Origin: Corynebacterium tuberculostearicum | GTDB taxonomy: Bacteria > Actinomycetota > Actinomycetes > Mycobacteriales > Mycobacteriaceae | Length of the DNA stretch: 64,000 bases | NCBI RefSeq assembly: GCF_016894265.1 | Contig: NZ_CP069791.1 | Coordinates: forward strand, 2,108,001-2,172,000 | Direction of reading: 5' to 3' | Translations under genes and position numbers: made by a program | Notes under the pieces: generated by a model | The model's database searches: none | What the model saw: only the letters and a program-made list of their open reading frames with translations | What the model was told of the DNA's origin: nothing | Part shown: in pieces, positions 7,866-42,618 of the stretch | Layout of the letters: each line of letters opens with the position of its first letter | Numbering within the stretch: the stretch's first letter is position 1

Positions 7866-7885
7866 TCCCCTCCCCTTTACACGCA

Positions 7886-7921
7886 AAGGCCGCCGTGAGA
7901 ATCACTTCTCGCGGCGGCCTT
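7886..7921 (+). terminator. Rho-independent terminator after rplY
   Basis: AAGGCCGCCG followed by TGAGAA pairs with TTCTC-GCGGCGGCCTT across a short TCAC loop, with one mismatch region, and is followed within a few bases by TTTTT. It separates rplY from pth. Confidence 0.8.
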
Positions 7922-7957
7922 GCCGTTTTTCTCTCTGTCTATGAGACAATTGAGCGC

Positions 7958-9354: not shown

Positions 9355-9430
9355 GCTGTGCCCAGGTTCTCACTCCAAAGTGGGCGGTCCCGTTTTCATC
9401 CCAGCCGCTAGTGCCGGTTAAGCTGGACTA

Positions 9431-10318
9431 ATGAGCACAAAAAGCAGTAAAGCCCCTAAGAAACTCAACAAGAAGGCCTACGAAAAGGAGCTCGAACGCC
9501 TCCAGGCGGAGCTCGTGGACATGCAGCAATGGGTCGTTGAAACCGGCGCCCGCGTAGTCATCATCATGGAGGGCCGCGACGCCGCCGGCAAGGGCTCCGC
9601 GATCAAGCGCATCACCCAGTACCTCAACCCGCGCACCTGCCGCATCGAGGCACTGCCCGCACCGAACTCTCGCGAACAGGGCCAGTGGTACTTCCAGCGC
9701 TACGTGGAAAAGCTGCCCACCAAGGGCGAAATCGTCATCTTTGACCGCTCCTGGTACAACCGCGCCGGTGTCGAGCGCGTCATGGGCTTTTGTACCGATC
9801 AGGAATACGTCCGCTTCCTGCACCAAGCACCCACCTTTGAGCAGATGTTGGTCGAAGACGGCATCATGCTGCGCAAGTACTGGTTCTCTGTTTCTGATGA
9901 AGAGCAGATTAAGCGCTTTGAATCCCGCCGCAACGATCCGCTGCGCCGTTGGAAACTCTCCCCTATGGATCTGCAGTCCATTACCCGCTGGGAGGACTAC
10001 TCCCGTGCCAAGGATGCGATGTTCATCCACACCGATACCCCAACCGCGCCGTGGTACACCGTGGAATCAGAAGACAAGAAGCGCTCGCGCATCAATGTCA
10101 TTTCGCACCTTCTGAGCACCATTCCGTACGAGAAGCTCGAGCGCGAGATGCCGGAGATCCCGCAGCGCCCAGATTCCGATGGCGAAACCTATGAACGCCC
10201 TGCCCGCGAAGAGTTCCGCTACGTGCCGGACGTCGCCGCCAAGCTTGAGCGCAAGTCCGAGCAAAAGACAGCGAAGAAGACGTCCAAGAAGGGCAAGAAG
10301 AAGGATAAGAAGAAGTAG
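9431..10318 (+). CDS. ppk2: Polyphosphate kinase 2 (PPK2) family protein
   Basis: Transfers phosphate between inorganic polyphosphate and nucleotides. The 295-residue protein has one PPK2 domain (residues 20-250) with Walker A GRDAAGKGSAIKRI near residue 46 and the Walker B/lid region FDRSWYNRAGVERVMGFC near residue 100, followed by SPMDLQSITRWEDYSRAKD. One-domain length suggests class I (nucleoside diphosphate to triphosphate), but direction is not readable. The last 30 residues are almost only Lys/Thr/Ser (SEQKTAKKTSKKGKKKDKKK), a basic tail that could bind polyphosphate. The neighbours give no pathway hint. Confidence 0.92.
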   Translation: MSTKSSKAPKKLNKKAYEKELERLQAELVDMQQWVVETGARVVIIMEGRDAAGKGSAIKRITQYLNPRTCRIEALPAPNSREQGQWYFQRYVEKLPTKGEIVIFDRSWYNRAGVERVMGFCTDQEYVRFLHQAPTFEQMLVEDGIMLRKYWFSVSDEEQIKRFESRRNDPLRRWKLSPMDLQSITRWEDYSRAKDAMFIHTDTPTAPWYTVESEDKKRSRINVISHLLSTIPYEKLEREMPEIPQRPDSDGETYERPAREEFRYVPDVAAKLERKSEQKTAKKTSKKGKKKDKKK

Positions 10319-27901: not shown

Positions 27902-28279
27902 ATGGGATTAAAAGACGCCCTCGCCCGACTTACCGGCGCGCAGCCCCCGCGCTTAGCTCACCCCGATTTCACCGCCCCCACCGCACGGGTAGAAAAACTG
28001 GAAATCCACACCGCTGGCCCGCTTATCATTGTGGTCACTAATCAGCCCGGCGCGGAAGTGCTCTGCGAGTTAGCCCGCGCCCGTGAATCCGCTACCTTGG
28101 TCTCTCCCGCTGCCACGGTTCATTTTGCCGCCACAAACAAGGAAGCCCTTCCCATCAAAGATCCCCGGCGCGGCTGGGTCATTCCGCTTACGCCCGCGCT
28201 TGCCGACGCCCTCGTAGACCACCTCCCCTACCCCGGCGACTATGAACTTTCCCCCGCCGTCGCCGTGGTGGTGGAATAG
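27902..28279 (+). CDS. Conserved-looking protein of unknown function (intact copy)
   Basis: A 125-residue soluble protein (MGLKDALARLTGAQPPRLAH...). No signal peptide, membrane helix or known motif. A strand-rich core is suggested by LEIHTAGPLIIVVTNQPGAE and the Pro-rich ending AVAVVVE. Its first 24 codons also occur, diverged, at 25433-25507, on the other side of the IS-containing block. The gamma-carbonic anhydrase gene starts 20 bases after its stop, so they may be cotranscribed. The right IS end lies only 15 bases before its start codon, so its native promoter may have been replaced. Confidence 0.65.
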   Translation: MGLKDALARLTGAQPPRLAHPDFTAPTARVEKLEIHTAGPLIIVVTNQPGAEVLCELARARESATLVSPAATVHFAATNKEALPIKDPRRGWVIPLTPALADALVDHLPYPGDYELSPAVAVVVE

Positions 28280-28298
28280 TTTCCTAGAAAGGACTGAC

Positions 28299-28838
28299 AT
28301 GCTGCTTTTGCCTTGTGCTGGGAAGAAGCCGCGCATCCACCGCAGTGCGTGGATTGCGCCCAATGCCACCATCATTGGTGATGTAGAAATCGGCCCGGAT
28401 TCCTCCGTCTTTTATGGCGCCGTACTGCGCGGCGACGTGGGCGCAATTCACATTGGCTCTAGGTGCAATATTCAGGACAATTGCGTCTTCCACGTAGAAG
28501 AGGACACGCCGTGCGTACTAGAAGATGATGTCACGGTGGGACACATGGCGATGGTTCATGCCGCGCATGTGGAGGCCGGTTCCCTGGTGGGTATGTCCTC
28601 TTCGCTGCTCTCGCGCTGCACTATTGGCACCGGCTCGCTCATCGCGGCAGGCGCCGTGGTACTGGAAGGAACCACCATTGCGCCGCGGAGCCTTGCCGCC
28701 GGCGTGCCGGCCAAGGTGCGCCGCGAGCTCAGCCAGGAAGAGTCACAGGCCTTCATTGCGCATGCTGCCCGCTACGTGGACTGCGCGCGCAGCCAATCCG
28801 ATGTGGCTTTGAGTCTGGAGGAGGTCACCTTTGATTAA
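28299..28838 (+). CDS. Gamma-class carbonic anhydrase family protein
   Basis: A 179-residue left-handed beta-helix protein. Hexapeptide repeats run through residues 20-150 (IHRSAWIAPNATIIGDVEIG). The three zinc-type histidines are in CVFHVEED and GHMAMVHAAHVEAG, as in the gamma-CA/YrdA family. Members hydrate CO2 or serve as ferripyochelin-binding-like proteins of unclear activity. The ATG at 28299 follows AGAAAGGA. Its stop overlaps the stop of the convergent membrane-protein gene by 4 bases. Confidence 0.88.
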   Translation: MLLLPCAGKKPRIHRSAWIAPNATIIGDVEIGPDSSVFYGAVLRGDVGAIHIGSRCNIQDNCVFHVEEDTPCVLEDDVTVGHMAMVHAAHVEAGSLVGMSSSLLSRCTIGTGSLIAAGAVVLEGTTIAPRSLAAGVPAKVRRELSQEESQAFIAHAARYVDCARSQSDVALSLEEVTFD

Positions 28839-29488
28839 AGGGAAAGCACGCCCATGAGGATGAGGAAGACCGCCACGAGGTAGCCGCCGAAGAGCGCCAC
28901 CTGGGTGCTATTGGCGCGCGCCGCGGCAAAAAGACGGCCGGCGGCCGATTCCGGATGGGCGCGCACCACCGCAATAAAAAGGCCACAGATAGTGGGCAGG
29001 GACAAAGCCAGGCTGGCGTACCACACCAAGCCGCCGTACTGAGCGGCCGGAGCGATGTCTTCGGTAGCCAGGTGCATGAGCCCGTAATAAAACGGCACCG
29101 AGGTCAGCGATTGCACCACGCCCATAATGAAACCGATAATCGCGGTAAGCAGCGATGGAGTACGCAACGGCTCGAGCAGCCGATTTACCAAGGCATTGGG
29201 CTGGCCTTGAGAGCGCCACGAGCCAAACCCCACCGCGATGCCGACTGCGACAAGTACCCAGCCGGCAACGGGCGAGCTCAAAATGGCCTCGATCTGGTCT
29301 TTTACTCCCAGCAGCACAAACATCACCACGGCCGCCGCGGCGAGGACTCCCATCCAGTCTCCTATCACCACTAAGGAGGCAATGCGCCGGTACTTGCCGC
29401 GGGGCAAGATGATGCCAATGGCCACGAGGATTCCGATGAGTAAGGCATTGACGGAATCCAGGAGGGCAAAACTAACGGCGTGGAGCAT
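28835..29488 (-). CDS. Six-helix membrane protein of unknown function
   Basis: A 217-residue membrane protein with about six hydrophobic segments. The N-terminus (MLHAVSFALLDSVNALLIGI) and two similar halves resemble GAP/LysE-like small transporters, but this is a weak impression. The middle (SWRSQGQPNALVNRLLEPLR) is polar and cytoplasmic. The ATG at 29488 is chosen because hydrophobic sequence follows; an ATG at 29539 adds 17 Gly/Ala-rich residues. It reads away from the mmpL gene and converges with the carbonic-anhydrase gene. Confidence 0.6.
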   Translation of the reverse strand: MLHAVSFALLDSVNALLIGILVAIGIILPRGKYRRIASLVVIGDWMGVLAAAAVVMFVLLGVKDQIEAILSSPVAGWVLVAVGIAVGFGSWRSQGQPNALVNRLLEPLRTPSLLTAIIGFIMGVVQSLTSVPFYYGLMHLATEDIAPAAQYGGLVWYASLALSLPTICGLFIAVVRAHPESAAGRLFAAARANSTQVALFGGYLVAVFLILMGVLSL

Positions 29489-29587
29489 GCCGGTCAGTCT
29501 ACCGCCCCATGCCGCCATCGCCGATACGCCTGAGGGCACAAGACCTATATCTCACGAGCAGCTTCCTATGGTCCACCACACAGTTCT

Positions 29588-29623
29588 TTGCGCACATTCC
29601 GCAATTTTGCGTACACTATGCAA
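29588..29623. promoter_or_regulatory. Tandem candidate TetR operators upstream of the mmpL-tetR operon
   Basis: Two related 17-base dyads stand 19 bases apart start to start: TTGCGCACATTCCGCAA (29588-29604) and TTGCGTACACTATGCAA (29607-29623). They share 13 of 17 positions, and both are TTGCG...GCAA palindromes. They lie about 100 bases before the mmpL start codon, in an otherwise A/T-richer gap; the downstream TetR is the obvious ligand. A third dyad, GCGCGC-AGAATT-GCGCGC, lies near 29681-29700. Confidence 0.5.
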
Positions 29624-29719
29624 TGTTTCGCGTGGGGTGCACATTCCTCTTCCCCACGGATTCCTTATACATCTTCGCGCGCGCAGAATTGCGCGCATAC
29701 TGCACAAGAAAGCATATTT

Positions 29720-32098
29720 ATGTCTAAATTCCTCTACCGGCTAGGTAGCTGGTCCTACCGCAAGGTGTGGCCCTTCCTAGCCTTTTGGCTCATCGTCTTG
29801 GTGGCCATGGCGGGACTTACCGCCGGCTTTGCCAAGGCCCCCAACCCTAATTTCTCCATGCCGGAGATGGACTCCACCACCACCCAAGACAAGATGATGG
29901 AGCGCTTCGGCCAAGATACCGATGCCATGAGTGCACCCGAAGGCAGCGTGGTCATCCAAGCTCCAGAGGGGAAGAACCTCACCGATAAGCAGGTAGCCGG
30001 CGAGGTAGATGATCTCCTTGGCGAGCTCAAGGACACTGGCGCGCTCAAGGGCCAGGACAAGCTGGTCAGCCCGGTGATGGCTGCAGCCGGCATGGAAAAG
30101 CAAATGGGCGAAAAGATGAAGGCCCAGCACATGCCAGACGAGCAGATTCAAAAGAACCTGCAGCAGCTCTCCCCCCTGAGCGAGGATAAGTCCACCGGCA
30201 CCGTCACCATCACCTTTGATGCGGAAACCGTCATGGACATCCCAGAAGAGGACATGACCAAGGTCACGGACGTACTCAATAAGTACGACGAGGGCGACCT
30301 CACCGTGAAGTACCAGGGCAATGCCTTTAGCTCCGCTGGCCAAGAGATGGGTGGCAGCGCCGAGATTATCGGCCTCATCGTCGCCGCGATCGTGCTGCTG
30401 ATTACCTTCGGTTCCTTCGTGGCCGCTGGCATGCCGCTAATCTCCGCCATCATCGGTGTGGGCATTGGCATCCTCGGCGTGCAGGTATCCACGGTCTTTA
30501 CGGATACCATCTCCGATATGACCCCGACGTTGGCCTCCATGATTGGCCTGGCCGTCGGCATCGATTACGCGCTGTTTATTGTCAACCGCTTCCGCAACGA
30601 GCTCATCACCTCCTCTGGCCTCAACGATCTTTCGCCAAAGGAACTGGCCCAAGAGCTCAAGAAGATGGATAAGGCCACCCGTGCCCACGCCATGGGCATG
30701 GCGCTGGGCACCGCGGGCGGTTCCGTTGTCTTCGCCGGCACCACCGTGGTCATCGCCTTGGCCGCGCTGACCATTATCGGCATCCCGTTCCTGGGCACCA
30801 TGGCCATCGCCGCCGCAGCTACGGTCATCATCGCCGTATTGGTTGCCAATACCTTCATCCCCGCCCTGCTGGGACTCTTGGGCACCAAGATCTTCGCCGG
30901 CCGCGTACCTGGCCCCAAGGTTCCAGACCCAGAGGACGAAAAGCCCACCATGGGCCTGCGCTGGGTACGCCGCGTGCGTGCCCACCCGTGGCTGCACCTT
31001 GTCGCGGCCGTCGTTTTGCTGGGCACCCTGGCCGTACCATTTGCCCAGCTGCGCCTGGCCATGCCTACCGATGGCACCGCAAAGCCCGGCACCCCGCAGC
31101 GCGAGGCCTATGAGATCACGGCAGACGCCTTTGGCCCTGGCCGCAATGCCCCGATGATCGCGTTCGTTGATGTGGCCGATGTCCCTGAGCAGGACCGCAT
31201 GCCGGCCTTCCAGGACCTCCTGCAGGAGATCAATGGCAACGACGGCGTAGAAAACGCCCAGATCGTGCAGACCACGGACAACGGTGATGCTGCGCAGATC
31301 ATGATCACGCCTACCACCGGTGCAACCGATGAGGAAACCACCGAAACCCTTAACCACCTGCGCGATTACCAGGGTGAGTTTGAAAAGACCGGCGGTTCCT
31401 ACGGCATTACCGGTATCACCCCGATCTTCGATGACATTTCTGAGCGCCTCAATAACGTGCTCATCCCATACGTAGCCATCGTGCTGGGCCTGGCCTTCAT
31501 CGTCTTGATGCTGGTCTTCCGCTCCATCTGGGTACCGCTCATCGCCGCAGCCGGCTTCGCTTTGTCGATGGCCGCGACCTTCGGCATCACCGTGGCCATT
31601 TGGCAAGAAGGCATGTTCGGCATCGTCGACGACCCACAGCCGCTGCTTTCCTTCCTGCCCATCATGCTCATCGGCCTTACCTTCGGCCTGGCCATGGACT
31701 ACCAAGTCTTCTTGGTTACCCGCATGCGTGAGGGATTTGTCAATGGCAAGACGGCTGGCAACGCTACCTCGAATGGCTTCAAGCACGGCGCCCGCGTGGT
31801 CACGGCCGCAGCCCTCATTATGGTTTCCGTCTTTGCCGCCTTCATCTTGATGGACGAGCCGTTCATTAAGACCATGGGCTTTGCCCTGGCTGCGGGCGTG
31901 CTTATTGACGCCTTCGTGGTCCGCATGATGATCATCCCCGCTACCATGTTTGTGCTGGATAAGAAGGCATGGTGGTTCCCGCGCTGGTTGGATAAGATCA
32001 CGCCAAACATGGATATCGAAGGCGAGGCCTTGCACTCCGACCGCGAGGAACTCCTGCGCACCCAACGAGAGAAGGTAGGCGAAGCACACCGTGACTAG
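29720..32098 (+). CDS. MMPL-family RND transporter
   Basis: A 792-residue membrane exporter of the actinobacterial MMPL type. Helix 1 is at residues 15-38, followed by a large extracytoplasmic loop (about 40-200), a cluster of helices 2-6 (about 205-380) with the MMPL motif GLAVGIDYALFIVNRFRNEL, a second loop (about 420-570), and helices 8-12 including FGLAMDYQVFLVTRMREGFV. The two GxxxDY motifs are the proton-relay features of RND carriers. Exported cargo is unknown: lipids, siderophores or drugs are all possible. ATG 29720; the TetR gene overlaps its stop by 8 bases. Confidence 0.9.
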   Translation: MSKFLYRLGSWSYRKVWPFLAFWLIVLVAMAGLTAGFAKAPNPNFSMPEMDSTTTQDKMMERFGQDTDAMSAPEGSVVIQAPEGKNLTDKQVAGEVDDLLGELKDTGALKGQDKLVSPVMAAAGMEKQMGEKMKAQHMPDEQIQKNLQQLSPLSEDKSTGTVTITFDAETVMDIPEEDMTKVTDVLNKYDEGDLTVKYQGNAFSSAGQEMGGSAEIIGLIVAAIVLLITFGSFVAAGMPLISAIIGVGIGILGVQVSTVFTDTISDMTPTLASMIGLAVGIDYALFIVNRFRNELITSSGLNDLSPKELAQELKKMDKATRAHAMGMALGTAGGSVVFAGTTVVIALAALTIIGIPFLGTMAIAAAATVIIAVLVANTFIPALLGLLGTKIFAGRVPGPKVPDPEDEKPTMGLRWVRRVRAHPWLHLVAAVVLLGTLAVPFAQLRLAMPTDGTAKPGTPQREAYEITADAFGPGRNAPMIAFVDVADVPEQDRMPAFQDLLQEINGNDGVENAQIVQTTDNGDAAQIMITPTTGATDEETTETLNHLRDYQGEFEKTGGSYGITGITPIFDDISERLNNVLIPYVAIVLGLAFIVLMLVFRSIWVPLIAAAGFALSMAATFGITVAIWQEGMFGIVDDPQPLLSFLPIMLIGLTFGLAMDYQVFLVTRMREGFVNGKTAGNATSNGFKHGARVVTAAALIMVSVFAAFILMDEPFIKTMGFALAAGVLIDAFVVRMMIIPATMFVLDKKAWWFPRWLDKITPNMDIEGEALHSDREELLRTQREKVGEAHRD

Positions 32099-32690
32099 TC
32101 TGCGCGAAGAAAAGAAGCGAGCTACGCGTCAGGCCATGGCCGATGCGGCAGCGCGCCTCGTCCTCGACGGCGGCGCCGAAGCCGCCACGATCTCCGGCAT
32201 CACCGCGGCCGTCGGGGTCTCCTCGCGCACCTTTCACAACTACTTCTCCTCGGTGGCCGATGCCCTGCTGTACTTCACGGCAGACGTGTTGGAATCCTTC
32301 GCCGCGGATATCCCCTCCGTGTGCCCTGGTAAAAGCGTTACCGCCGTCTTAGAGGCAGCGCTGCTCGAGTCCTTGGAAGACGAAGAAAAGGAGCTGCGGT
32401 CCCTCCATACGCTCTACCGCATTGGTGAGGCCCTGGATAACCTCAGCCACACCTCCGAAGAGAGGAAGCGCTTCGAGCGCGTATCTGACACCATCATTTC
32501 CGCCTTCCAGCAGCGCGGAACTGATTACACGGACTATGAGCTAGGCGTCGTCCTCAATGCGTGCGCCGGCGGCAGCGTTGCATTCCGGCAGGAGCTGGAC
32601 CGGCGCCAAGCGGCGGGAGAAAGTATCAGCCTGGCTGATAAGAAGAAGCTGGTAAAGGACACTTTTTCCGTCCTGCGCACCCTCGACTAG
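32091..32690 (+). CDS. TetR-family regulator coupled to the MMPL transporter
   Basis: A 199-residue regulator. The N-terminal HTH (residues 10-55) reads KRATRQAMADAAARLVLDGG, then ISGITAAVGVSSRTFHNYFS. The remainder is helical ligand-binding domain of normal length. It starts with GTG at 32091, overlapping the mmpL stop by 8 bases. Being the second gene of the operon it presumably represses the operon through the two dyads at 29588-29623, with an MMPL substrate or related compound as inducer (inference). Followed by a terminator. Confidence 0.9.
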   Translation: MTSLREEKKRATRQAMADAAARLVLDGGAEAATISGITAAVGVSSRTFHNYFSSVADALLYFTADVLESFAADIPSVCPGKSVTAVLEAALLESLEDEEKELRSLHTLYRIGEALDNLSHTSEERKRFERVSDTIISAFQQRGTDYTDYELGVVLNACAGGSVAFRQELDRRQAAGESISLADKKKLVKDTFSVLRTLD

Positions 32691-32724
32691 TCGCTAGCGC
32701 GCTACACCATAGGTTCATTCACTG

Positions 32725-32772
32725 TTAACCCTGCATGGCCCAAATATACGGGCTATGCAGGGTAAAATTTTC
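32725..32772 (+). terminator. Terminator after the mmpL-tetR operon
   Basis: TTAACCCTGCATGGCCC (32725-32741) pairs with GGGCTATGCAGGGTAA (32750-32765) with one mismatch and one extra base, then AAATTTT. The TAAAAT within the distal side could also serve as a -10 for the next operon. Confidence 0.75.
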
Positions 32773-32813
32773 CCTTAGCCTCAGCACGACAACTAGCTCT
32801 GGAGAATGACACA

Positions 32814-34016
32814 GTGAAGATAGCGATTCTTGGTGGCGATGGCTTTTGTGGATGGCCCGCTTCCCTATTCCTTTCGGATCAAGGCCACGAGGTCGCTATC
32901 GTTGATAACCTCTCCCGGCGCGCCATCGATGCGGAACTAGGCGCCGAATCCCTCACGCCCATCGCTTCCATTGAGGAACGCTTGGCGGCGTGGAAAGAGG
33001 TCAGTGGGAAAGATATTTCCTTCGCCAACATCGATATCGCCAAGGATTACGCCGGGTTCGTGGAGTTCCTCCGTTCCTTCGCTCCGGATGCCGTCGTGCA
33101 TTTCGCGGAGCAGCGCGCCGCGCCTTACTCCATGAAAAATCCCACCACCAAGCGCTACACGGTGGATAACAACATCAATGCCACCCATAACCTTTTAGCC
33201 GCAGTTGTAGAAACCGGCCTCGATATTCACGTCGTTCACCTCGGAACCATGGGAGTCTACGGTTACGGCACCGCCGGTATGCAGATCCCTGAGGGCTACC
33301 TGGATATCAAGGTGGCCGTACCGGAACAGGGTGAGGTGGAAAAATCTATCCTCTACCCTTCCAATCCGGGTTCGATTTACCATATGACGAAGGTCCTGGA
33401 TCAGCATCTTTTTGCCTACTACGCCAAGAATGATGAGCTGCGCATTACCGACCTGCACCAGGGCATTGTCTGGGGCACCCACACCGCCCAGACCCAGAAG
33501 GATGAACGCCTAATTAACCGCTTTGATTATGACGGCGACTACGGAACGGTATTGAACCGCTTCCTCGTGCAGGCCGGCATCGGCTATCCGCTGACGGTAC
33601 ATGGAACCGGTGGCCAAACCCGCGCCTTCATCCACATTCAAGACATGGTGCGCTGCATCGAGCTCGCTCTGGAAAATCCACCATCGCGCGGTGACCGCGT
33701 AAAAATCCTTAACCAAATGACGCAAACCCACCGCGTGCGAGACTTAGCAGAACTCATCGCTGACATCTCTGGCGCCGAGGTGGCTTATGTTCCTAATCCG
33801 CGCAAAGAGTCGGCTGAGAACGAGTTGCACGTATCCAATGACACCTTCCTGGGGCTCGGCCTTAACCCCACCACGCTTTCTGAAGGCCTACTCCACGAGG
33901 TCGAAGAGGTTGCTAAGAAATACGCGGACCGCGTTGACCGCAGCAAGATTCCGGCCCAGTCTTTGTGGACCGCACAGCAGGCAGCGGGCGTTCCACACAC
34001 CGCGCAGCAGAAATAA
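32814..34016 (+). CDS. sqd1: UDP-sulfoquinovose synthase (SQD1-type)
   Basis: Makes UDP-6-sulfoquinovose from UDP-glucose and sulfite, the head-group donor of sulfolipid SQDG. The 400-residue extended SDR has the NAD motif GGDGFCGWPASLFL at residues 7-20 (the GDGxCGW form is characteristic of SQD1), VDNLSRR and ESLTPIASIEERLAAWKE, VVHFAEQRAAPYSM, the catalytic Thr145 in HLGTMGVYG, and Tyr189/Lys193 in YHMTK. LTVHGTGGQTRAFIHIQDMV and VPNPRKESAENE also match the family. By eye it follows plant SQD1 along its whole length. It starts with GTG at 32814 after GGAGAATGAC. A GT4 gene follows after 17 bases. Confidence 0.88.
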   Translation: MKIAILGGDGFCGWPASLFLSDQGHEVAIVDNLSRRAIDAELGAESLTPIASIEERLAAWKEVSGKDISFANIDIAKDYAGFVEFLRSFAPDAVVHFAEQRAAPYSMKNPTTKRYTVDNNINATHNLLAAVVETGLDIHVVHLGTMGVYGYGTAGMQIPEGYLDIKVAVPEQGEVEKSILYPSNPGSIYHMTKVLDQHLFAYYAKNDELRITDLHQGIVWGTHTAQTQKDERLINRFDYDGDYGTVLNRFLVQAGIGYPLTVHGTGGQTRAFIHIQDMVRCIELALENPPSRGDRVKILNQMTQTHRVRDLAELIADISGAEVAYVPNPRKESAENELHVSNDTFLGLGLNPTTLSEGLLHEVEEVAKKYADRVDRSKIPAQSLWTAQQAAGVPHTAQQK

Positions 34017-34033
34017 GCAGCGACTTTCCTACC

Positions 34034-35182
34034 ATGCGCATTGCTATTGTCACCGAAGTTTTCTTGCCCAAGATTGATGGGGTGGTCACCCGCCTGACAA
34101 ATACGCTGGACCAGCTCGCGGAGCTCGGCCATGAGGTGCACATTTTTGCCACCGGCACTCCACCAGAAACCTATGCGGGCTTTCCGGTTACCCGCATCCC
34201 CAGCCGCTCACTGTGGGTCTATCCGGAAATTCACTTTGGATTACCTAGCCTCCGGTTCTTCCGCGCCATCCGCGACTTTGATCCGGATGTCATTCATGCC
34301 GTCAATCCCATTTGGACCGCGGCTCTTGGCGTCTTTGCCGCCGAGCGCGATGCTGTACCGCTAGTTGCTAGCTTCCACACCAATGTGCCGGAATATACCG
34401 AGGCCCTGGGCATTGGTTGGCTGCGGCCGATTACGCAGAAGGCCATTACATTCCTCCATAATCGGGCTGCGATCAATCTCTGCACCTCTGGCCCCATGGT
34501 GGAAAAGGCACACGACATGGGCATTCATACCGTACGACTGTGGCCTAAGGCCGTTGATACGCAGGCCTATCGTCCCGACAATTATGACCCCCAGATGCGA
34601 TCGCGGTTGACTGGAGGGCACCCAGAGGCGCCGTTGATTACCTATATCGGCCGAATTTCGCACGAAAAGGACCTGGCGCGGCTCAACGAGGTCATGCGCC
34701 AGGTGCGCACGCGTGTGCCGGCCGCGCGCCTCGCCCTTATCGGCGCCGGTCCCGCACTAGAGGAGTTGCGCGCCCAGTTTGATTCCGCCACCACCGTGTT
34801 TACCGGCTATCTTTCTGGAGCCGAGCTGCAGGCAGCCTTCGCAGCAGGCGATGTATTCGCCTTCCCCTCCGCCACGGAAACGCTGGGTTTGGTTGCTCTA
34901 GAGTCCTTTGCTTCCGGGGTGCCGGTGGTCGGCACCAATGCCGGCGGCATCCCCTTTGTTATCGAGCATGAAAAGACCGGGCTGCTGGTAGATGAGGACG
35001 CCACGGATGAGCAGTGGGCTAGCGCTCTGTGCTCATTGTTGGAGGATCCGCAGGCGCGCCAACGCATGGGGCGCGCCGCGCGCGAAGAAGCGGAGCGCTA
35101 CTCCTGGCGGGAATCGACCAAGGCTTTGGTAGCCGCCTATGAGTACGCCTGCCGGCACCCGTATCATCATGAGCAACCATGA
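34034..35182 (+). CDS. GT4-family glycosyltransferase, probable sulfoquinovosyltransferase (SQD2-like)
   Basis: A 382-residue GT-B glycosyltransferase. The N-terminal Rossmann domain starts MRIAIVTEVFLPKIDGVVTR and includes VNPIWTAALGVFAAERDAVP and SFHTNVPEYTE. The linker WPKAVDTQAYRP and the donor-binding YIGRISHEKDL follow, with the E-x7-E motif in TETLGLVALESFASGVP. All these are typical of the SQD2/PimB-like GT4 group. The donor is inferred to be UDP-sulfoquinovose because it lies 17 bases after sqd1; an alternative is a mannosyl or glucosyl transferase for mycobacterial-type phosphoinositides or lipoglycans. The stop overlaps the next start by 4 bases. Confidence 0.82.
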   Translation: MRIAIVTEVFLPKIDGVVTRLTNTLDQLAELGHEVHIFATGTPPETYAGFPVTRIPSRSLWVYPEIHFGLPSLRFFRAIRDFDPDVIHAVNPIWTAALGVFAAERDAVPLVASFHTNVPEYTEALGIGWLRPITQKAITFLHNRAAINLCTSGPMVEKAHDMGIHTVRLWPKAVDTQAYRPDNYDPQMRSRLTGGHPEAPLITYIGRISHEKDLARLNEVMRQVRTRVPAARLALIGAGPALEELRAQFDSATTVFTGYLSGAELQAAFAAGDVFAFPSATETLGLVALESFASGVPVVGTNAGGIPFVIEHEKTGLLVDEDATDEQWASALCSLLEDPQARQRMGRAAREEAERYSWRESTKALVAAYEYACRHPYHHEQP

Positions 35183-36357
35183 ATGCTTACCACTCCATTG
35201 AACGCACCGCGGCCGATGCCCGCTTTATCCGTGCCGGAATTAACGCTGCCTTTCGCGAACGCATCGGGAAGGCGACCGACGTGGAATTCAATTTCCTCGG
35301 GCCCTCGGCTGGCGATAGCGAAGGAAGCTATGCCACCGACCAGCTCGTGGAGGTACGGGTAAGCTCCGCGCAACACGTGGCGGATTTTCGTGGCGTGCGC
35401 CTGGCCGTCATCGCCGCAGGCACCTGGCACTGGACTACCGCTGCGACCGAGCATTGTGCTGACCTTCCGCAGTCAGGTACGGCCAGCACAGACGTCGACC
35501 GAATGGTTGCTTATGCCTCCCTTATCGTGGGCAACATGCCGGTGCTGCGCGCCCAGCAGGGCGAGCACGTGGCCATTGTTGCGGTAGATTTCCACCCCTA
35601 CCTGGACTTTCGCCAGACCTTGCTGCGTGGTCTCCAGCACAGCAGCACGGAAGCGGACGAGAAGGGACCGGCCCTCGCACTTGCCCGCTACCTAGACATG
35701 GAGTCCACCGAGGAAGAGCCCTACCTGCATTTTTCTGATGGCACCACGGTGCGTTTTGAACAGCCAAGCCCCGAGGTACACAAGATTTCCGGCATCACCC
35801 CGGGCTTGGCGGCCGCTCGCGTCTTGGAGGACGCCTTTTACTTAAGCACCGAAAGCCAGATGTTTTTCCAAGGCAACTTCCCAGATGCCACGGTAGAACT
35901 CGATGTGGAAAAAGCCACTGCCACGGTGTCCTACAGCGGCGGGCAGATGACGGCCAATGCGGTGCTTATCGCGACCATTTCGGACGAGGAATTCACGTGG
36001 GCCTGGGCGGATCCGCAGCTCAAGGACACCGCGGCGGCGCGGTTGGCAGGAAACCTAGCGCGCTTTGGTATCGACGAGGCCGTGCCTGAATTGGTACGCC
36101 CGCACCTTCCGCTTGAGCTGGCGCGCGGGCACCAGCTGCCGCACCTAGCCTTGCCCATTTTGGGGATCTGGACGCTGGCGGGCACTACGCTTGCCGACGC
36201 CCGCGTGGGCCTCGTCCTGCTCGACGCCCTACAGCTGCACCTCCCGGAGCCGACGCCAGCCGCCACCGAAGCGACGCTGGCGGTGGCCCCTCCCTCATGG
36301 ATCAACGCCGATCGCGCCCGCGCCGCCTATGGATCATTTCGCGGGGTGGAGGTGTAG
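35179..36357 (+). CDS. Protein of unknown function, third gene of the sqd1-GT4 operon
   Basis: A 392-residue soluble protein without signal peptide or membrane segment. Two similar halves carry an aromatic motif: VIAAGTWHWTTAATEHC (residues about 72-88) and DEEFTWAWADPQLKD (about 270-285), each followed by a helix. This WxW arrangement resembles the DUF6882-type proteins, but I am not certain. Its ATG overlaps the GT stop by 4 bases (ATGA), so it is translated with the pathway, though no enzymatic motif can be named. Its 3' end overlaps the convergent hydrolase gene by about 24 bases. Confidence 0.6.
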   Translation: MNAYHSIERTAADARFIRAGINAAFRERIGKATDVEFNFLGPSAGDSEGSYATDQLVEVRVSSAQHVADFRGVRLAVIAAGTWHWTTAATEHCADLPQSGTASTDVDRMVAYASLIVGNMPVLRAQQGEHVAIVAVDFHPYLDFRQTLLRGLQHSSTEADEKGPALALARYLDMESTEEEPYLHFSDGTTVRFEQPSPEVHKISGITPGLAAARVLEDAFYLSTESQMFFQGNFPDATVELDVEKATATVSYSGGQMTANAVLIATISDEEFTWAWADPQLKDTAAARLAGNLARFGIDEAVPELVRPHLPLELARGHQLPHLALPILGIWTLAGTTLADARVGLVLLDALQLHLPEPTPAATEATLAVAPPSWINADRARAAYGSFRGVEV

Positions 36358-37377
36358 GGCGCTGCGGAGGGCGTCCACGTCGACGTCGGCAAGCGCGGCA
36401 GGCTCAAATGCCGCATCGTTGGTTTTATCCACCAAGACCGCTCGCACGCCCTCGGCAAAGTCCCCACGTCGGTACATATAAGCGCCCAGGTTGGTCTCCA
36501 TATCTAGCGCTTCGCGGATACTGCTGCACTCCTGCTCGGCGCGGAAGAGCTCCATGGCCGCCACGATGGAGGTCGGGCACGCTTGCGCGGTCAGCTTGTC
36601 TACCTGTTGTTTAAGCTCTGGGTATTTTTCCAGGGCCGCGGTGATTTCTTGCCAGGTGTCGTGGGAAAAGGCGTCCTCGATGGCGTCGATAAGCTCGGCC
36701 AAGGGGGCCTCGCCGCTAGGTGCGGTGGCGTGTTGGGCTAGCGCCGTGTCTAGTCCATGCTCGATCACCGCACTTGCAAAGGCTTCGCCGTCCGCCACAT
36801 AGTGGGTGGCCAGCCCGCTCCATACAAGGTCTGCGGCATACATGCGGTAGCCGGTGATCCCCCAGAACTTCGCCAACTCGGCCGAGGCCTTCCCGCGCGT
36901 TCCCACCGCCCGCTGGGCGGCATAGGCCATGCCTACGTCGGTGACATAGCCAATATTCATCTCTGGCATGGAGGCAAAGGTTTTCTCCGTAACCACGCGG
37001 TGGGACCCGTGGGCGGAAATGCCCAGACCGCCGCCCATAGCAATCCCATCGATGAGCGCCACGATGGGCTTGGGATACTCCGCAATATCACCGTTTAACG
37101 TGTATTCGGTGGCGAAGAAGGCATCGACCTCATCCGCCTTGCCCTCCTTGACCCCTTCGCGGGCGTAGCGGACATCGCCGCCGGCGCAATATGCCTTGGG
37201 ACTAGTCGAGGTAAACAGCACCTGTTCCACCTCATCAGTGTCGCGCCACTGCGCCAGCGACTCCGCAATGAGGTCTATCATTTCCGGGGTGAGGGAATTG
37301 AGAGCCTTGGGGCGGTTGAGCTCAATGACTCCGGTATGGTTACGGATTGAGGAAATGATAGGTGCAGTATTTGTCAT
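36334..37377 (-). CDS. Enoyl-CoA hydratase/isomerase family, 3-hydroxyisobutyryl-CoA hydrolase-like
   Basis: A 347-residue crotonase-fold enzyme. The oxyanion loops are visible in STSPKAYCAGGDVRYAREG and DGIAMGGGLGISAHGSHRVV, and the acidic pair of the hydrolase subgroup in SMPEMNIGYVTDVG (Glu and Asp). The length and the C-terminal helical extension fit 3-hydroxyisobutyryl-CoA hydrolase of valine breakdown rather than a 260-residue hydratase. Partial support only. The ATG at 37377 is chosen over an upstream one. It overlaps the 3' end of the previous convergent gene by 24 bases. Confidence 0.8.
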   Translation of the reverse strand: MTNTAPIISSIRNHTGVIELNRPKALNSLTPEMIDLIAESLAQWRDTDEVEQVLFTSTSPKAYCAGGDVRYAREGVKEGKADEVDAFFATEYTLNGDIAEYPKPIVALIDGIAMGGGLGISAHGSHRVVTEKTFASMPEMNIGYVTDVGMAYAAQRAVGTRGKASAELAKFWGITGYRMYAADLVWSGLATHYVADGEAFASAVIEHGLDTALAQHATAPSGEAPLAELIDAIEDAFSHDTWQEITAALEKYPELKQQVDKLTAQACPTSIVAAMELFRAEQECSSIREALDMETNLGAYMYRRGDFAEGVRAVLVDKTNDAAFEPAALADVDVDALRSALHLHPAK

Positions 37378-37446
37378 AACCCCTAGTGTGACACAAAACG
37401 CATGCACCTATCCACCATCAGCTAATTCACAGTTAGGTTCGGAATT

Positions 37447-38244
37447 TTGCTCCCACAGCTCATCGCCCTGGATATGGACGGCACCCTACTGGACGGCAAC
37501 GGCCAGCTTCCACCAGATTTCGCCGCGATCAGCACCCGTGCCCATCAGCTCGGCGTCACCCTAGTACCCGCCTCAGGCCGCCAGCTCGCCACCCTGCAAG
37601 AGATGTTTCCGCACGAGGACACCTTCATCGCAGAAAATGGCTCCGTGGTCGTCCATGATAATCGCGTCATCAGCGCCACTACCCTGCCCGGCACAGCCGT
37701 GCGCGCCGCCGTGGCCGCGCTCCAGTCTGTCGAAACCCCGCATACCGTAGTGCTGTGCACGCCGGATACCGCCTATGTACACAAAGGCGCCGACGAGCAG
37801 TCCCGCGCTGAGATTGCCAAGTACTACAGGTCAGTGGAATGGGTAGATGGCCTCGATGCGCTACTGGATGCGGACATCATCAAAATCGCCGCTTACTGCG
37901 CCGACGGCAGCGAAAAGCACCTACACCAGCCCCTCCTTGCGGCCGTACCGGAACACAATATCGCCATCTCTGGCGCCGTATGGCTCGATGTCATGGCCGC
38001 TGGCGTCAATAAGGGCGTAGCGCTACAGACCATGGCCGAGCTTCTCTCGGTTCCCATGTCCCGCACCGCCGCTTTTGGTGATTTCCTCAATGACTACGAG
38101 CTCCTCCGCGAGGCAGGCACCGCGATCGCAATGGACAATGCACACCCAAAGTTGAAGGAAATCGCCGATCGCATTGCCCCACCCAATACCGAATATGGTG
38201 TCATGACAGTTCTGCGTCAGCTTTTTGACAGCGAAGAGTCTTAG
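37447..38244 (+). CDS. HAD-superfamily phosphatase, Cof type
   Basis: A 265-residue hydrolase. Motif I is LIALDMDGTLLDGNGQLPPD at residues 5-24 (nucleophile Asp), motif II SGRQLATLQEMF, motif III Lys at NKGVALQT and motif IV AFGDFLNDYELLREAG, with a C2-type cap between. Family members dephosphorylate sugar phosphates, FMN or pyridoxal phosphate. It starts with TTG at 37447. It is divergent from the hydrolase gene with about 70 bases between starts. Specific substrate unknown. Confidence 0.88.
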   Translation: MLPQLIALDMDGTLLDGNGQLPPDFAAISTRAHQLGVTLVPASGRQLATLQEMFPHEDTFIAENGSVVVHDNRVISATTLPGTAVRAAVAALQSVETPHTVVLCTPDTAYVHKGADEQSRAEIAKYYRSVEWVDGLDALLDADIIKIAAYCADGSEKHLHQPLLAAVPEHNIAISGAVWLDVMAAGVNKGVALQTMAELLSVPMSRTAAFGDFLNDYELLREAGTAIAMDNAHPKLKEIADRIAPPNTEYGVMTVLRQLFDSEES

Positions 38245-38364
38245 ACTCGAATTTTCGCCTCCGCCCCGCGCGCCGCACCGTTACTCCCCCGCATGGGGAG
38301 AAGTGCTGGTGCGCAGGCTAAAATAGTCCGCTTAGAAAATATACGTAGTGCTTTGGGAGTTTTT

Positions 38365-41300
38365 GTGAAGCAAATTTTGCGCTCACTGCTGGGGAAGAAG
38401 AAACCTGGGCGTTCGAACGAACCACGCACACCGGTCTATCAGCCAGTACAGCCCAAAGCTGGCTCTACCAGTGCGCCCCAAACCCCTACTAAAAAGGATT
38501 CTGCGCCCCAGAAATCGGCCAACACCGAATCCACCACGGGTGCACAATCCACCGAGCCGAAGGGCAAGCCCCAGGACCGTCCCGCTAAGGACGGCGAGTC
38601 CAAGAACCAGGCTAAGCAGGCACCCGCGCGCAAGCCCACTCCGACGAAGCCTGCACAGGCTTCCAAATCCAAGCCTGCTGCTGCGAAGCCGAAGGATGCA
38701 AAGCCTGCCGCCAAGCCCGCAGCTAAAGGCACTACTCGGCCCAGCACCGAAAAATCCCAGGCAAGCAAGACCACTTCCGCAAAACAGCAGCAGGCTAAGT
38801 CCACCTCGCCATCTCCTGCAGCCAAGGCGCCAAAGGCCAAGCCTGCAGCCCAAGGTTTTGCCGCCAAGCCATCCGCCGCACAACAAAACAAGGCAGAATC
38901 CTCCCCCAAAGCAGCTGTTAAAAAGCAACAAAACTCCCCCGCTCAAGACAAGAAGCCACAGCGCAAAGCGCACGAACCGGTTCAGCGACCACGCCGCGGC
39001 GCAAGCTTTAGCACCACCCCGTCTAAGAACTCCCCAAAGACTCCTTCTGCCCGCAGTAATTCCCCGAAGCTGGCCGCGAAGCCTGTCACCCAACCCTCCC
39101 AAAAAGGCGCGGTAAAACCCGCACCTCAGGCTCAACCCTCTACCCAGAAGCCGAAGCAGGCACCCAAGCCATCCTCTTCTTCCAGCGCGAAGAAGGCTTC
39201 CCCACAACCGGCAAAGCCGCAGAAATCCCAGCCCGCTAATGCCAAGCCGGCCACCGCCCAGCAGCAAGCGCAAAAGCCACGCTCCCCCAAGCGCATGCCG
39301 GCAAACTCGGCAAAGCAGCAACCACAGCCGCAACCAACGCCAAAGAAGAATGCGCAGCCGTCGAAGCCCTCGCGACCGTCCAAGGGCCAAGGACCAGCGC
39401 GTACTCCCGGCACTGCAAAGCAAAAGGCTACCCCACAGGCCTCAGCCCCTAGCACTCCAGCGCCAAAGAAAGGCACCACTGCCCCCAAGCCGAAGGTAGC
39501 TGCGCCAAAGACTGCAGCCGATGCATCCCAGCAGAAAGCTGGGGCGGTGCAGAACAAGACTGCCGACAATGGAGACAAGGTAGTCCAGCCGAAATCGCAG
39601 CAAGGCGCACCCTCTAAGGGCAACCTGCCCAGGCAAGAGGCGAAGAAACAACAGCCGCAGCCGAAGGCAAAGGAGGCGACGCCTCAGAACGAGGCCAAAA
39701 AAGTAAGCAAGCGACGCCCGCAGGTTAAGCCTTCCGATATCAGTCGCGGATTGGCTCGCAAATCGCAGCAGGTGGGCACTCCTACCCCGGCTCAGCAAAA
39801 GCCGTCGCGAGCTGCCCAGAAGCCTAAGGCAAAGCAACAGCCTGCTCCGTCCCAGCCGAAGAAGGCCGAGCCTCAAGCCACTCCGAAGATGAAGCCTGCA
39901 AAGGCAGGCAAGTCCGCTGTAGCGGGCGCTGTAGCTGGTGCAGGTGCGGCCGCCGCCGCTGCTGAAAAGAAACGGAAAAAGGCACAACCGTCGAAGGCGC
40001 AACAGCCAGCTCCTAAAAAGCCACAAGCAAAGGCGGCACCGCGCCAGCCACAACAAGCTGCGCAGAAGCCAGCCTCACCGAAAGCCTCGAGCACGCAGGT
40101 AGATACTAAGTCTAAGTATCCGCTACAAAAGCAGGCCGAGGATCCTGAAGCGCTGGCTACGCCGCCGGAGAGCAAAGTAGTTAAGAAGAAGCGCCACGCC
40201 CGTCTGCGCCAAGTCAAGGGACTGGATGGACTGCGCGGCCTCGCAGTTATTGCCGTGGTGCTGTACCACTTCTTCCCTTCTCTGCTTCCCGGTGGTTACT
40301 TGGGCGTTGACCTCTTCTTCGTCCTCTCTGGATTCCTCATCACATCGTTGCTGGTGCGCGAATTCCGTACCTCCGGTACCATCAGCTTGAAGGACTTCTG
40401 GGTGCGCCGATTCCGACGCATCCTCCCGGCCGCAGTATCCGTCCTGGTCATGTGTACGGCTTTGGTGGCATGGATAGGCGGGGACCTCGCGGTCGGCTTG
40501 CGCCAGCAGTTCTTGGGAACTCTATTCTTTGTCAATAACTGGACCCAGATCGCCACCTCCCAGTCCTACTTTGCGGACAATGAGATTCAGGTCTTTGCTC
40601 ACTATTGGTCGTTGGCCGTAGAGGAGCAGTTCTATGTCATCTGGCCGCTTCTTATCACCGGCGTTTTCCTGATTTCTCGCCGCAAGCCGCGCCGGCTTCC
40701 CATCCTCGTAGCCGCAGTCTTAGCTATAGGTTCCGCCGTGGCCATGGCGCTCCTTTACGTGCCGGGCGAAGACCCAACGCGCGTTTATTACGGCACTGAT
40801 ACCCATGCTTTCGGCCTGCTCACTGGCGCCGTGCTGTCTTTGCTGATGACCTCTACCAAGTCCGACCCACAGGCGGATTCGTGGGCAGCGACAGGCAAAG
40901 CCGAATCGCGCATCGCCGGAATCATCGGCACTGTGGCGCTCATCGGCTACGGTGCCCAGCTATTCCTCATGCCGGATGATGCAGAGATCACCTACCGGGG
41001 TGGACTCTTCCTCACTAGCGTGCTTGGTGTCCTAATGGTGTGGGGCGTGGTTCGCGAATACGGCCCGATGACCCCGCTCTTTCGGACCAAGGTCATGCGC
41101 TGGTTTGGCCAGCGTTCCTTCTCGCTATATCTCTGGCACTGGCCGGTCATCATGATGCTCAAGGCGCTTTTCGAGGGCAACCAAAACTCCGATAAATCGT
41201 GGATCCTAGGCCTTGTAGCCGTGCCGATTTCGCTGCTTCTGTCCGAGATTTCCTATCAGTTCATTGAGAATCCGTTCCGCCGCGGCGGCTATAAGAAGAC

Positions 41301-42108
41301 ATGGAAGACCTACTGGTCCTCCCGCCCAGGATTTAGCGAATTGCGCGATGGCTTTGGCAAGACCATGTGGCCGGTAGTCCCATTCCTAGTCATTGCCTCT
41401 GTAGCCGGCGTAGTCTACGGCGTTATTAATTCCAGCGATAAGACCGAGCTGGAGCAGCAACTGGAGCAGCTTCAGCAGCAGAACCAGAGCAGCAACAATG
41501 CCCCGGCGCAGCCGAATGATGCTGCGCCACAGCCGCCTGCTGAGGACAACGACGATAAGGCTGCCGCGAAGGATAAGAAGACCCGCCCGATGCCGCAGGG
41601 CAAAGACATCACCGCTGTCGGCGACTCGGTGATGCTGGCTTCTAGTGGCGCCCTCAAGCAGCGCTTCCCGCAGATTTACGTCGATGCAGACGTATCCCGC
41701 CACTACACCGCGGGTATCCAGATTCTGCAGCAGCTCAAGGATTCCGGCCAGCTGCGCGACACCGTCTTCCTCGGGTTTGGTACTAACGGCCCTGCCTTCC
41801 CGGACCAGATCAAGGAAGCGCTAGACATCATCGGCGAAGACCACACTATTGTCATGGCTGTTCCCTATGGTGACCGCGAATGGATGGCCCAATCCCAACA
41901 GGATGTCCTCGACGCAGCCAAGGAATACGACAACGTATATGTCGCAGACTGGTGCGGACACGCACAGAGCGACCCCGCAATCCTCTATTCCGATGGTGTT
42001 CACCCGATGCCGGAACGCACCGGCGAGTACTCGGATGCCTTCTACGACGCTCTAAAGCAGTACTCGAATGGCGATAAGACCGTGTCCTCTCAGTGCGTGC
42101 CGCAGTAA
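38365..42108 (+). CDS. Membrane O-acyltransferase (OafA/YrhL type) with giant basic N-terminal tail and SGNH-like C-terminus
   Basis: A 1247-residue protein. Residues 1-605 are almost purely Lys/Pro/Ala/Gln/Ser (for example PQPQPTPKKNAQPSKPSR), have no signal peptide and few hydrophobics; one AlaGly run (AVAGAVAGAGAAAAAA) is near residue 515. Residues about 612-990 are an acyltransferase-3 domain with about ten helices: LDGLRGLAVIAVVLYHFF, GVDLFFVLSGFLITSLL, WSLAVEEQFYVIWPLL. After a Gln-rich coiled stretch (ELEQQLEQLQQQNQ) comes an SGNH-hydrolase-like domain with GDSVMLASSGA (Ser near 1088), GFGTNG and DGVHPMPE. It should O-acylate envelope glycans or lipids. GTG 38365 follows GGGAG; an ATG at 38293 is the alternative. 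Confidence 0.85.
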   Translation: MKQILRSLLGKKKPGRSNEPRTPVYQPVQPKAGSTSAPQTPTKKDSAPQKSANTESTTGAQSTEPKGKPQDRPAKDGESKNQAKQAPARKPTPTKPAQASKSKPAAAKPKDAKPAAKPAAKGTTRPSTEKSQASKTTSAKQQQAKSTSPSPAAKAPKAKPAAQGFAAKPSAAQQNKAESSPKAAVKKQQNSPAQDKKPQRKAHEPVQRPRRGASFSTTPSKNSPKTPSARSNSPKLAAKPVTQPSQKGAVKPAPQAQPSTQKPKQAPKPSSSSSAKKASPQPAKPQKSQPANAKPATAQQQAQKPRSPKRMPANSAKQQPQPQPTPKKNAQPSKPSRPSKGQGPARTPGTAKQKATPQASAPSTPAPKKGTTAPKPKVAAPKTAADASQQKAGAVQNKTADNGDKVVQPKSQQGAPSKGNLPRQEAKKQQPQPKAKEATPQNEAKKVSKRRPQVKPSDISRGLARKSQQVGTPTPAQQKPSRAAQKPKAKQQPAPSQPKKAEPQATPKMKPAKAGKSAVAGAVAGAGAAAAAAEKKRKKAQPSKAQQPAPKKPQAKAAPRQPQQAAQKPASPKASSTQVDTKSKYPLQKQAEDPEALATPPESKVVKKKRHARLRQVKGLDGLRGLAVIAVVLYHFFPSLLPGGYLGVDLFFVLSGFLITSLLVREFRTSGTISLKDFWVRRFRRILPAAVSVLVMCTALVAWIGGDLAVGLRQQFLGTLFFVNNWTQIATSQSYFADNEIQVFAHYWSLAVEEQFYVIWPLLITGVFLISRRKPRRLPILVAAVLAIGSAVAMALLYVPGEDPTRVYYGTDTHAFGLLTGAVLSLLMTSTKSDPQADSWAATGKAESRIAGIIGTVALIGYGAQLFLMPDDAEITYRGGLFLTSVLGVLMVWGVVREYGPMTPLFRTKVMRWFGQRSFSLYLWHWPVIMMLKALFEGNQNSDKSWILGLVAVPISLLLSEISYQFIENPFRRGGYKKTWKTYWSSRPGFSELRDGFGKTMWPVVPFLVIASVAGVVYGVINSSDKTELEQQLEQLQQQNQSSNNAPAQPNDAAPQPPAEDNDDKAAAKDKKTRPMPQGKDITAVGDSVMLASSGALKQRFPQIYVDADVSRHYTAGIQILQQLKDSGQLRDTVFLGFGTNGPAFPDQIKEALDIIGEDHTIVMAVPYGDREWMAQSQQDVLDAAKEYDNVYVADWCGHAQSDPAILYSDGVHPMPERTGEYSDAFYDALKQYSNGDKTVSSQCVPQ

Positions 42109-42161
42109 AGCAATGGAAGGCGCGAGGAGGGGCGTCGGAAAGCGCCTAGCTTCCTCCCCGC

Positions 42162-42221
42162 CCTTCGCGCTCACTGCGGATGCTGCTACTAGCGGAGCAA
42201 ACTTTCCGGTGAGCGCGAAGG
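42162..42221. repeat. Long inverted repeat in the gap after the acyltransferase gene
   Basis: CCTTCGCGCTCAC (42162-42174) and GTGAGCGCGAAGG (42209-42221) are perfectly complementary 13-base arms with 34 bases between. No T-run follows. The gap 42109-42294 otherwise contains only the terminator at 42246-42283. Confidence 0.55.
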
Positions 42222-42245
42222 ATGCTGGTGCGCTTAGGCATAGAA

Positions 42246-42283
42246 AAAGCTCGCCTTCTACATTGCGGTAGAGGGCGAGCTTT
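42246..42283. terminator. Bidirectional terminator between the acyltransferase and the monooxygenase-like genes
   Basis: AAAGCTCGCC followed by TTCTAC pairs with GTAGAGGGCGAGCTTT across ATTGCG; one mismatch. A- and T-runs at both sides fit convergent genes. Confidence 0.85.
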
Positions 42284-42294
42284 ATTCGCTGGGA

Positions 42295-42618
42295 TTAGTC
42301 GACGGAGAATTCGCCCATCTTGTCCCAGCCGGTGCGGCCTTCGATGTGAACGTTAATGATGTCCGGGGTTTCTACGAGGTACTTCGGGAATTCCTCGCAG
42401 GAGCGCTGGAAGTGCTCGCTCTGGACGTGCTCTACGTCCTTGCCGTCTGCGTAAGACTCCAGCAGCAGGAAGCGCTGGCGGTCTTCTGGATCGCGGAACC
42501 ACTTGAAGTCGATGCAGCCCGGTTCTGCATTGCAGGCCTCGGTGTACCAATTGATTTCATCGAGGAAGGTCTCTGCGTATTCGGGCTTGACGTGGAACTG
42601 TACGTTGATCAAAATCAT
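42295..42618 (-). CDS. Antibiotic-biosynthesis-monooxygenase (ABM) domain protein, quinol monooxygenase-like
   Basis: A 107-residue dimeric alpha+beta barrel (ferredoxin-like) protein: MILINVQFHVKPEYAETFLD, NAEPGCIDFKWFRDPEDRQRFLLLESY and HVQSEHFQRSCEEF. The conserved Asn/Trp/His pattern suggests the YgiN-type cofactor-free monooxygenases or related heme-degrading folds; substrate unknown. It stands alone and is followed by a terminator. Confidence 0.8.
   Translation of the reverse strand: MILINVQFHVKPEYAETFLDEINWYTEACNAEPGCIDFKWFRDPEDRQRFLLLESYADGKDVEHVQSEHFQRSCEEFPKYLVETPDIINVHIEGRTGWDKMGEFSVD

Follow-up and report, generated by a model that had tools for sequence, protein, structure and literature searches.

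A predicted sqdB-sqdX pair for sulfoquinovosyl diacylglycerol synthesis in a Corynebacterium genome

Sulfoquinovosyl diacylglycerol (SQDG) is described as the product of two enzymes, SQD1/SqdB and SQD2/SqdX (PMC5897459, PMC8227023). The lipid serves as a marker for chloroplasts and cyanobacteria (PMC11278827), and its synthesis is also reported for some non-photosynthetic bacteria (PMC12133307). In Rhodobacter sphaeroides, which carries an sqdBDC operon, deletion of sqdB is reported to abolish SQDG (PMC11346425). Here we analyse a 64,000-nucleotide stretch (the window; all coordinates are window positions) of a 2.43-Mb single-contig Corynebacterium genome, in which a gene for an SqdB-type UDP-sulfoquinovose synthase is followed by a gene for a GT4 glycosyltransferase resembling SqdX. 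The host is related to species found on human skin and in urine, and the proteins closest to those of the window belong to the C. tuberculostearicum/C. marquesiae group. We read the locus as a two-gene SQDG pathway and hold this to be likely from the sequence evidence.

An earlier reading of the same DNA (the original prediction) had proposed three consecutive plus-strand genes as a sulfoquinovose unit, and the three open reading frames are indeed present where it had placed them. It had also known of no sulfoquinovosyl glycolipid in corynebacteria. This agrees with the literature searched: no report of SQDG or sqdB in corynebacteria appears in the titles or abstract openings among the matches listed, a set that lies mostly outside the subscription literature, and the main text of a review of the corynebacterial envelope has no word beginning with "sulfo" (PMC3658426). 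"Uncharacterized glycolipids" are reported for the type strain of C. marquesiae, and glycolipids for all eight species described in the same account (PMC9963754). Since all eight have them, the C. marquesiae report is neutral on SQDG, neither showing nor excluding it.

The UDP-sulfoquinovose synthase and its sulfite supply

The sqdB gene (32814-34016, plus strand, GTG start) encodes a predicted UDP-sulfoquinovose synthase of 400 amino acids, a member of the short-chain dehydrogenase/reductase (SDR) family. A phmmer search matches its residues 2-385 to the Arabidopsis SQD1 structures 1QRR and 1I24 (E about 1e-98, 333 bits, 45% identity), whereas the best solved SDR other than SQD1 reaches 48 bits. 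A UDP-sulfoquinovose synthase is expected to have a glycine-rich GGDGxCGW start and a catalytic Thr, Tyr and Lys. The window protein has GGDGFCGW, Thr145, Tyr189 and Lys193, all near-invariant across 93 aligned sequences (an alignment without L001 and L013); of its 156 near-invariant positions in that alignment, 108 are identical in Arabidopsis. The proposal of an SQD1-type synthase of nearly full length is borne out by this match. It had been called plant/bacterial, and the bacterial side is the nearer. Over 80 named loci outside the window's own genome, the best-segment identity of SqdB is 67-86%, and proteobacterial (including alphaproteobacterial), cyanobacterial, Bacillota and Trueperaceae copies are 67-71% identical, against only 45% for the plant enzyme.

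Within the genus, proteins named C. marquesiae are 98-99% identical to the window SqdB, and a C. minutissimum protein (P0282) is already annotated as "sulfolipid biosynthesis protein" in one source. In a comparison of sqdB with that of C. minutissimum, 7% of second codon positions differ and 46% of third ones, a pattern consistent with purifying selection on the gene. The SQD1/SqdB proteins are described as two large clades, one of plants and some cyanobacteria, the other of the remaining cyanobacteria, alphaproteobacteria and red algae (PMC8227023). Judged by the identities and by the SqdB tree (from which L022, L012, L008 and L025 were additionally left out), the window protein looks like the second clade. 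The SqdB of Rhodovulum (L081) is 69% identical to it and has a GT8-domain gene directly behind, as is expected of an sqdBDC operon in which SqdD is a GT8 enzyme, as we take it to be. We regard the putative assignment of the window protein as SqdB as strong.

The genome also appears equipped to supply sulfite. It carries adjacent CysH, CysD and CysN genes, which pass the curated cut-offs of NF002537, NF003587 and TIGR02034, respectively, and a nitrite/sulfite reductase family protein, which is below the cut-offs of all models listed for it. Nearby are genes that, by eye from their sequences, resemble a uroporphyrinogen methyltransferase and a ferredoxin reductase. CysH makes sulfite, so sulfite would be available to SqdB whether the reductase acts on nitrite or on sulfite.

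The GT4 transferase and its pairing with sqdB

The second gene (34034-35182, plus strand) encodes a predicted sulfoquinovosyltransferase of 382 amino acids with the GT4 Pfam domains PF00534 and PF13439; the E-x7-E motif of GT4 two-domain transferases is present as E282/E290. Its ATG lies 17 bases past the sqdB stop; the longest open frame opens at a GTG at 33965, within sqdB.

The two genes are tightly associated across the genus. An sqdB match (E<=1e-30) is found in 72 of 201 Corynebacterium genomes, being partial only in G004, G116 and G154, and a GT4 match (E<=1e-80) in 70. Each of the 70 GT4 copies sits immediately downstream of sqdB and is read in the same direction; the two matches are separated by -1 to 104 bases (median 17.5). 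None of the 129 genomes without an sqdB match has the GT4. Two genomes have an sqdB match but no counted GT4: G004, with only fragments of both genes, and G102, whose GT4 match is divided over two frames. The same arrangement is seen among the named loci, within the genus and beyond it: GT4 directly follows sqdB at 30 of the 80 named loci, or 31 if L031 is included, whose open frame extends back into sqdB, and lies farther from sqdB at two more. The actinobacterial hosts are Corynebacterium, Citricoccus, Kocuria, Brevibacterium, Gulosibacter, Zimmermannella, Ornithinimicrobium and Propionibacterium; the others are Trueperaceae, two Bacillota and the cyanobacterium Leptothoe. By title, no match listed concerns SQDG in Citricoccus, Kocuria, Brevibacterium or Ornithinimicrobium. 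Two side observations concern other sqdB copies. Locus L125 (G166:C1:1968000-1984000) contains at 7689-8201 a second, partial sqdB (residues 1-171, 81% identical), located apart from the full-length pair of the same genome, and Prauserella, Saccharomonospora and Nocardioidaceae (L045, L050, L051, L055, L062, L065, L088) have an SqdB of another branch, beside which an SqdX-like GT4 was not found.

Six of six cyanobacterial genomes searched that have this type of SqdB contain one GT4 match each (E<=1e-25), 42-43% identical to the window protein; in Leptothoe it adjoins sqdB. When one of these cyanobacterial GT4 proteins is searched back against the Corynebacterium genome, the window GT4 comes first (315 bits) and another GT4 gene, G000:C1:205644-206747, second (226 bits). 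We take this latter gene to be MgtA-like, MgtA presumably having a role in lipid glycosylation. It is the next relative of the window GT4 in its own genome (33% identity) and has the GT4 domains in common with it, but lies elsewhere in the genome and is without the signature stretches FPSxTETLGLV and DGxVTR. Seventeen near-invariant positions of the SqdX-like group are missing in three MgtA-like rows of the signature alignment. In a tree of 52 GT4 proteins, the GT4s of the pairs fall together with the cyanobacterial and Bacillota proteins, while the MgtA-like GT4 of the same genome stands outside. Left out of this tree were duplicates, partial copies and distant relatives (L116, L001, L013, L103, L106, L012, L022, L025, L008, L097, L015 and L016), and additionally left out of the signature alignment were L017, L109, L110 and L111. 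The spacing, the domains and the grouping with inferred cyanobacterial SqdX fit the SQD2-type transferase that had been predicted, and we consider the candidate SqdX assignment good.

What the sequence shows is the family of each enzyme, the constant pairing of the two genes in the sampled genus and a set of genes leading to sulfite. We infer that SqdB and the GT4 are catalytically active and that the pair is co-transcribed. In the proposed pathway, sulfate assimilation (CysD/CysN, CysH) would supply sulfite, SqdB would combine sulfite with UDP-glucose to form UDP-sulfoquinovose, and the SqdX-type GT4 would transfer sulfoquinovose to diacylglycerol, giving SQDG. The product would be an anionic, phosphorus-free membrane lipid able to substitute for acidic phospholipids. 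Diacylglycerol is most likely the acceptor and SQDG a likely product; the lipid is presumably present in the cell and may stand in there for acidic phospholipids.

Several points weigh against this reading. SqdB scores 343 bits against the NCBIfam model for UDP-sulfoquinovose synthase, NF041015, whose cut-off is 575, and the protein is not filed under this equivalog model. In a control of 14 genomes, 13 had a match to the model and one reached the cut-off; as the matches include ordinary related SDR genes, the control leaves the low SqdB score unexplained. At 47 of the 80 named loci, some of them on short contigs, no GT4 relative was found in the DNA examined, which suggests that this branch of SqdB also works with other partners; the alphaproteobacterial loci fall among these 47. 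Support for the branch that joins the SqdX-like proteins is an SH-aLRT of 88, short of 95, in a quickly built tree with flagged long branches, and the cyanobacterial "SqdX" was identified by its family, its uniqueness and one adjacency to sqdB (Leptothoe), not by a named reference. The acceptor of a GT4 cannot be read from its sequence, and plant SQD2 is reported to act also in glucuronosyl-diacylglycerol synthesis (PMC5897459).

The model score and the second activity of SQD2, together with the functional divergence of SDR enzymes, would fit an SqdB that is a related sugar-nucleotide dehydratase or epimerase working without sulfite, so that the pair would make a non-sulfonated product such as glucuronosyl-diacylglycerol. 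This is very improbable in view of the gap between SQD1 and any other solved SDR (333 versus 48 bits), the retention of the SQD1 active-site stretches, the 69% identity to a Rhodovulum SqdB backed by a GT8 gene, and the absence of the GT4 from every one of the 201 genomes that has no sqdB. A different possibility is that UDP-sulfoquinovose is made but that the GT4 acts on a corynebacterial glycolipid, a trehalose lipid or an envelope glycan, the product perhaps being exported by the MMPL protein encoded upstream. The MgtA-like protein being its next relative in the genome speaks for such an acceptor, whereas the grouping of the GT4 with the inferred cyanobacterial SqdX, apart from the MgtA-like GT4, speaks against it, and with the evidence from the upstream genes given below we judge it unlikely. 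The original prediction had offered SQDG or sulfoquinovose on an envelope glycan as alternatives; SQDG is favoured as the most likely product, and the other acceptor is kept as a rival.

The third reading frame and other neighbours

The third gene (35179-36357, plus strand) overlaps the GT4 gene by 4 bases and encodes a protein of 392 amino acids, up to 91% identical to C. tuberculostearicum proteins, with a DUF6882 domain (PF21813; 77.1 bits against a gathering cut-off of 23.9) that covers residues 214-349 only. The overlap could indicate an operon of three functional genes, in which the DUF6882 protein is an accessory factor in sulfolipid assembly, and DUF6882 also adjoins the pair in L020, L021 (a partial match), L022, L121, L122, L123 and L126. 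This idea is barely credible when other genomes are considered. Both G005 and G006 are without sqd genes; their order is carbonic anhydrase, SfLAP, MMPL, TetR, DUF6882, hydratase, HAD and acyltransferase, with no pair between TetR and DUF6882, and DUF6882 occupies the same slot in G004, which bears only a relic of the pair. In C. lubricantis (L027), DUF6882 is near the ECH and HAD genes, about 6 kb from the pair. It was detected at only 4 of the 80 named loci and beside the pair at 3 of them, while 10 of the 80 are Corynebacterium loci with GT4 directly behind sqdB. Moreover, the protein is 42% identical to that of C. minutissimum, against 86% for sqdB and 73% for GT4, indicating that it evolves much faster than the two enzymes. 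The DUF6882 gene is therefore probably a neighbour, possibly co-transcribed, and not part of the pathway. The search of other genomes, which the original prediction had suggested for its three-gene unit, thus finds the pair recurrent (70 of 201 genomes in the genus), but the third member has to be dropped.

Upstream lie genes for an MMPL-family exporter (29588-32098, plus strand; Pfam MMPL, 269 bits) and a TetR-family regulator (32091-32690, plus strand; Pfam TetR_N), preceded by an SfLAP-like membrane protein (28835-29539, minus strand), a weak match at 25.5 bits against a Pfam cut-off of 35, and a gamma carbonic anhydrase-like gene (28242-28838). In mycobacteria, an MMPL exporter with a neighbouring SfLAP ("sulfolipid-1-addressing protein") is a type of pair for lipid export. 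This arrangement adds to the case for another acceptor of the GT4, and would also suit a lipid specific to mycolate bacteria, such as an outer-membrane sulfoquinovosyl glycolipid, exported by MMPL/SfLAP as a counterpart of the mycobacterial sulfolipid systems; we regard this more specific idea as distinctly doubtful. The pair is present in L020, L121 and L126, where MMPL-TetR was not found beside it, and both are present in L021, L122 and L123. Since DUF6882 and MMPL-TetR occur without sqd in G005 and G006, and the pair occurs without MMPL-TetR, neither tracks the pair. MMPL-TetR was considered as a dedicated exporter and regulator of the pair and was rejected as unsupported. The SfLAP-like gene is also found in G005, G006 and G004, and so is not tied to sulfoquinovose.

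The intergenic region before sqdB (32691-32813) folds at -40.3 kcal/mol (z -4.03), and none of 200 shuffles is equally stable. It contains a 14-base-pair hairpin (32728-32763, plus strand) between the TetR gene and sqdB, with no long T run and not listed by the terminator scan, which may mark the end of the MMPL-TetR transcript or be an operator. Upstream of sqdB in 18 carriers, words like TTWACCC or GGTAAC were seen by eye in several, possibly a regulator site. Promoter- and terminator-like sites in 32000-37500 are about as numerous as in shuffles, and no Rfam family reaches its gathering score in 28000-42500. Downstream are genes for an enoyl-CoA hydratase/isomerase family protein (36334-37407, minus strand), a HAD hydrolase (37447-38244) and, by Pfam, an acyltransferase (Acyl_transf_3) of 1271 amino acids (38293-42108, plus strand), whose N-terminal half is very long, of low complexity and rich in Pro, Lys, Ala and Gln.

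History of the pair and comparison with known systems

Corynebacterium sequences form one group in both the GT4 and SqdB trees (SH-aLRT 99 in each). The closest to this group in the GT4 tree is Citricoccus (SH-aLRT 96), with Kocuria joining next (83); the SqdB tree places the group within the same actinobacterial cluster without resolving the branching order. Among 296 genomes sampled from the class, 11 have an sqdB match (E<=1e-100), the window's own genome included, and in that sample none of the 20 listed genomes of other genera of the same family has one at this threshold. The pair was probably acquired sideways from a Micrococcales-like source, and some species have since lost it; the simplest history is a single gain that spread vertically and was followed by repeated loss. 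An apparent case of loss is G004 (locus L118, G004:C1:108000-126000), which keeps fragments of sqdB and of the GT4 tail at about 8859-9465. No MMPL or TetR match was found at this locus, and its hydratase is 96% identical to that of the window. G004 is, by these remains, a close relative that lost the pathway.

SQDG is probably made by many corynebacteria. If carriers do make it, a marker lipid of chloroplasts and cyanobacteria would also come from human-associated corynebacteria, and the reading of lipidomes from human-associated sites would be affected. Bacteria that eat sulfoquinovose would have a local source of it, and part of the genus would have a phosphorus-free acidic lipid. Because the genes are scattered (matches in 72 of 201 genomes) and a close relative retains a relic, species that carry them lend themselves to comparison with those that do not.

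The nearest known arrangements outside the genus, by the GT4 tree, are the Micrococcales pairs of Citricoccus, Kocuria, Brevibacterium and Ornithinimicrobium, which have the same gene order; apart from a weak HAD match in L029 and L030, the other genes that flank the pair in the window were not found next to these. In the sqdBDC operon of Rhodobacter sphaeroides and its relatives, a GT8 gene comes after sqdB (as in L081), whereas here a GT4 gene follows and then DUF6882. The SqdB-SqdX system of cyanobacteria and the SQD1-SQD2 system of plants employ the same two enzyme families, and Leptothoe kymatousa (L079) has sqdB and GT4 adjacent in the same order. The present host, however, is non-photosynthetic, and its enzymes differ from theirs in sequence (GT4 42-43% identical to the cyanobacterial proteins, SqdB 45% to Arabidopsis SQD1). 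What the locus encodes is a pathway of known type in an unexpected, new host and not a new system.

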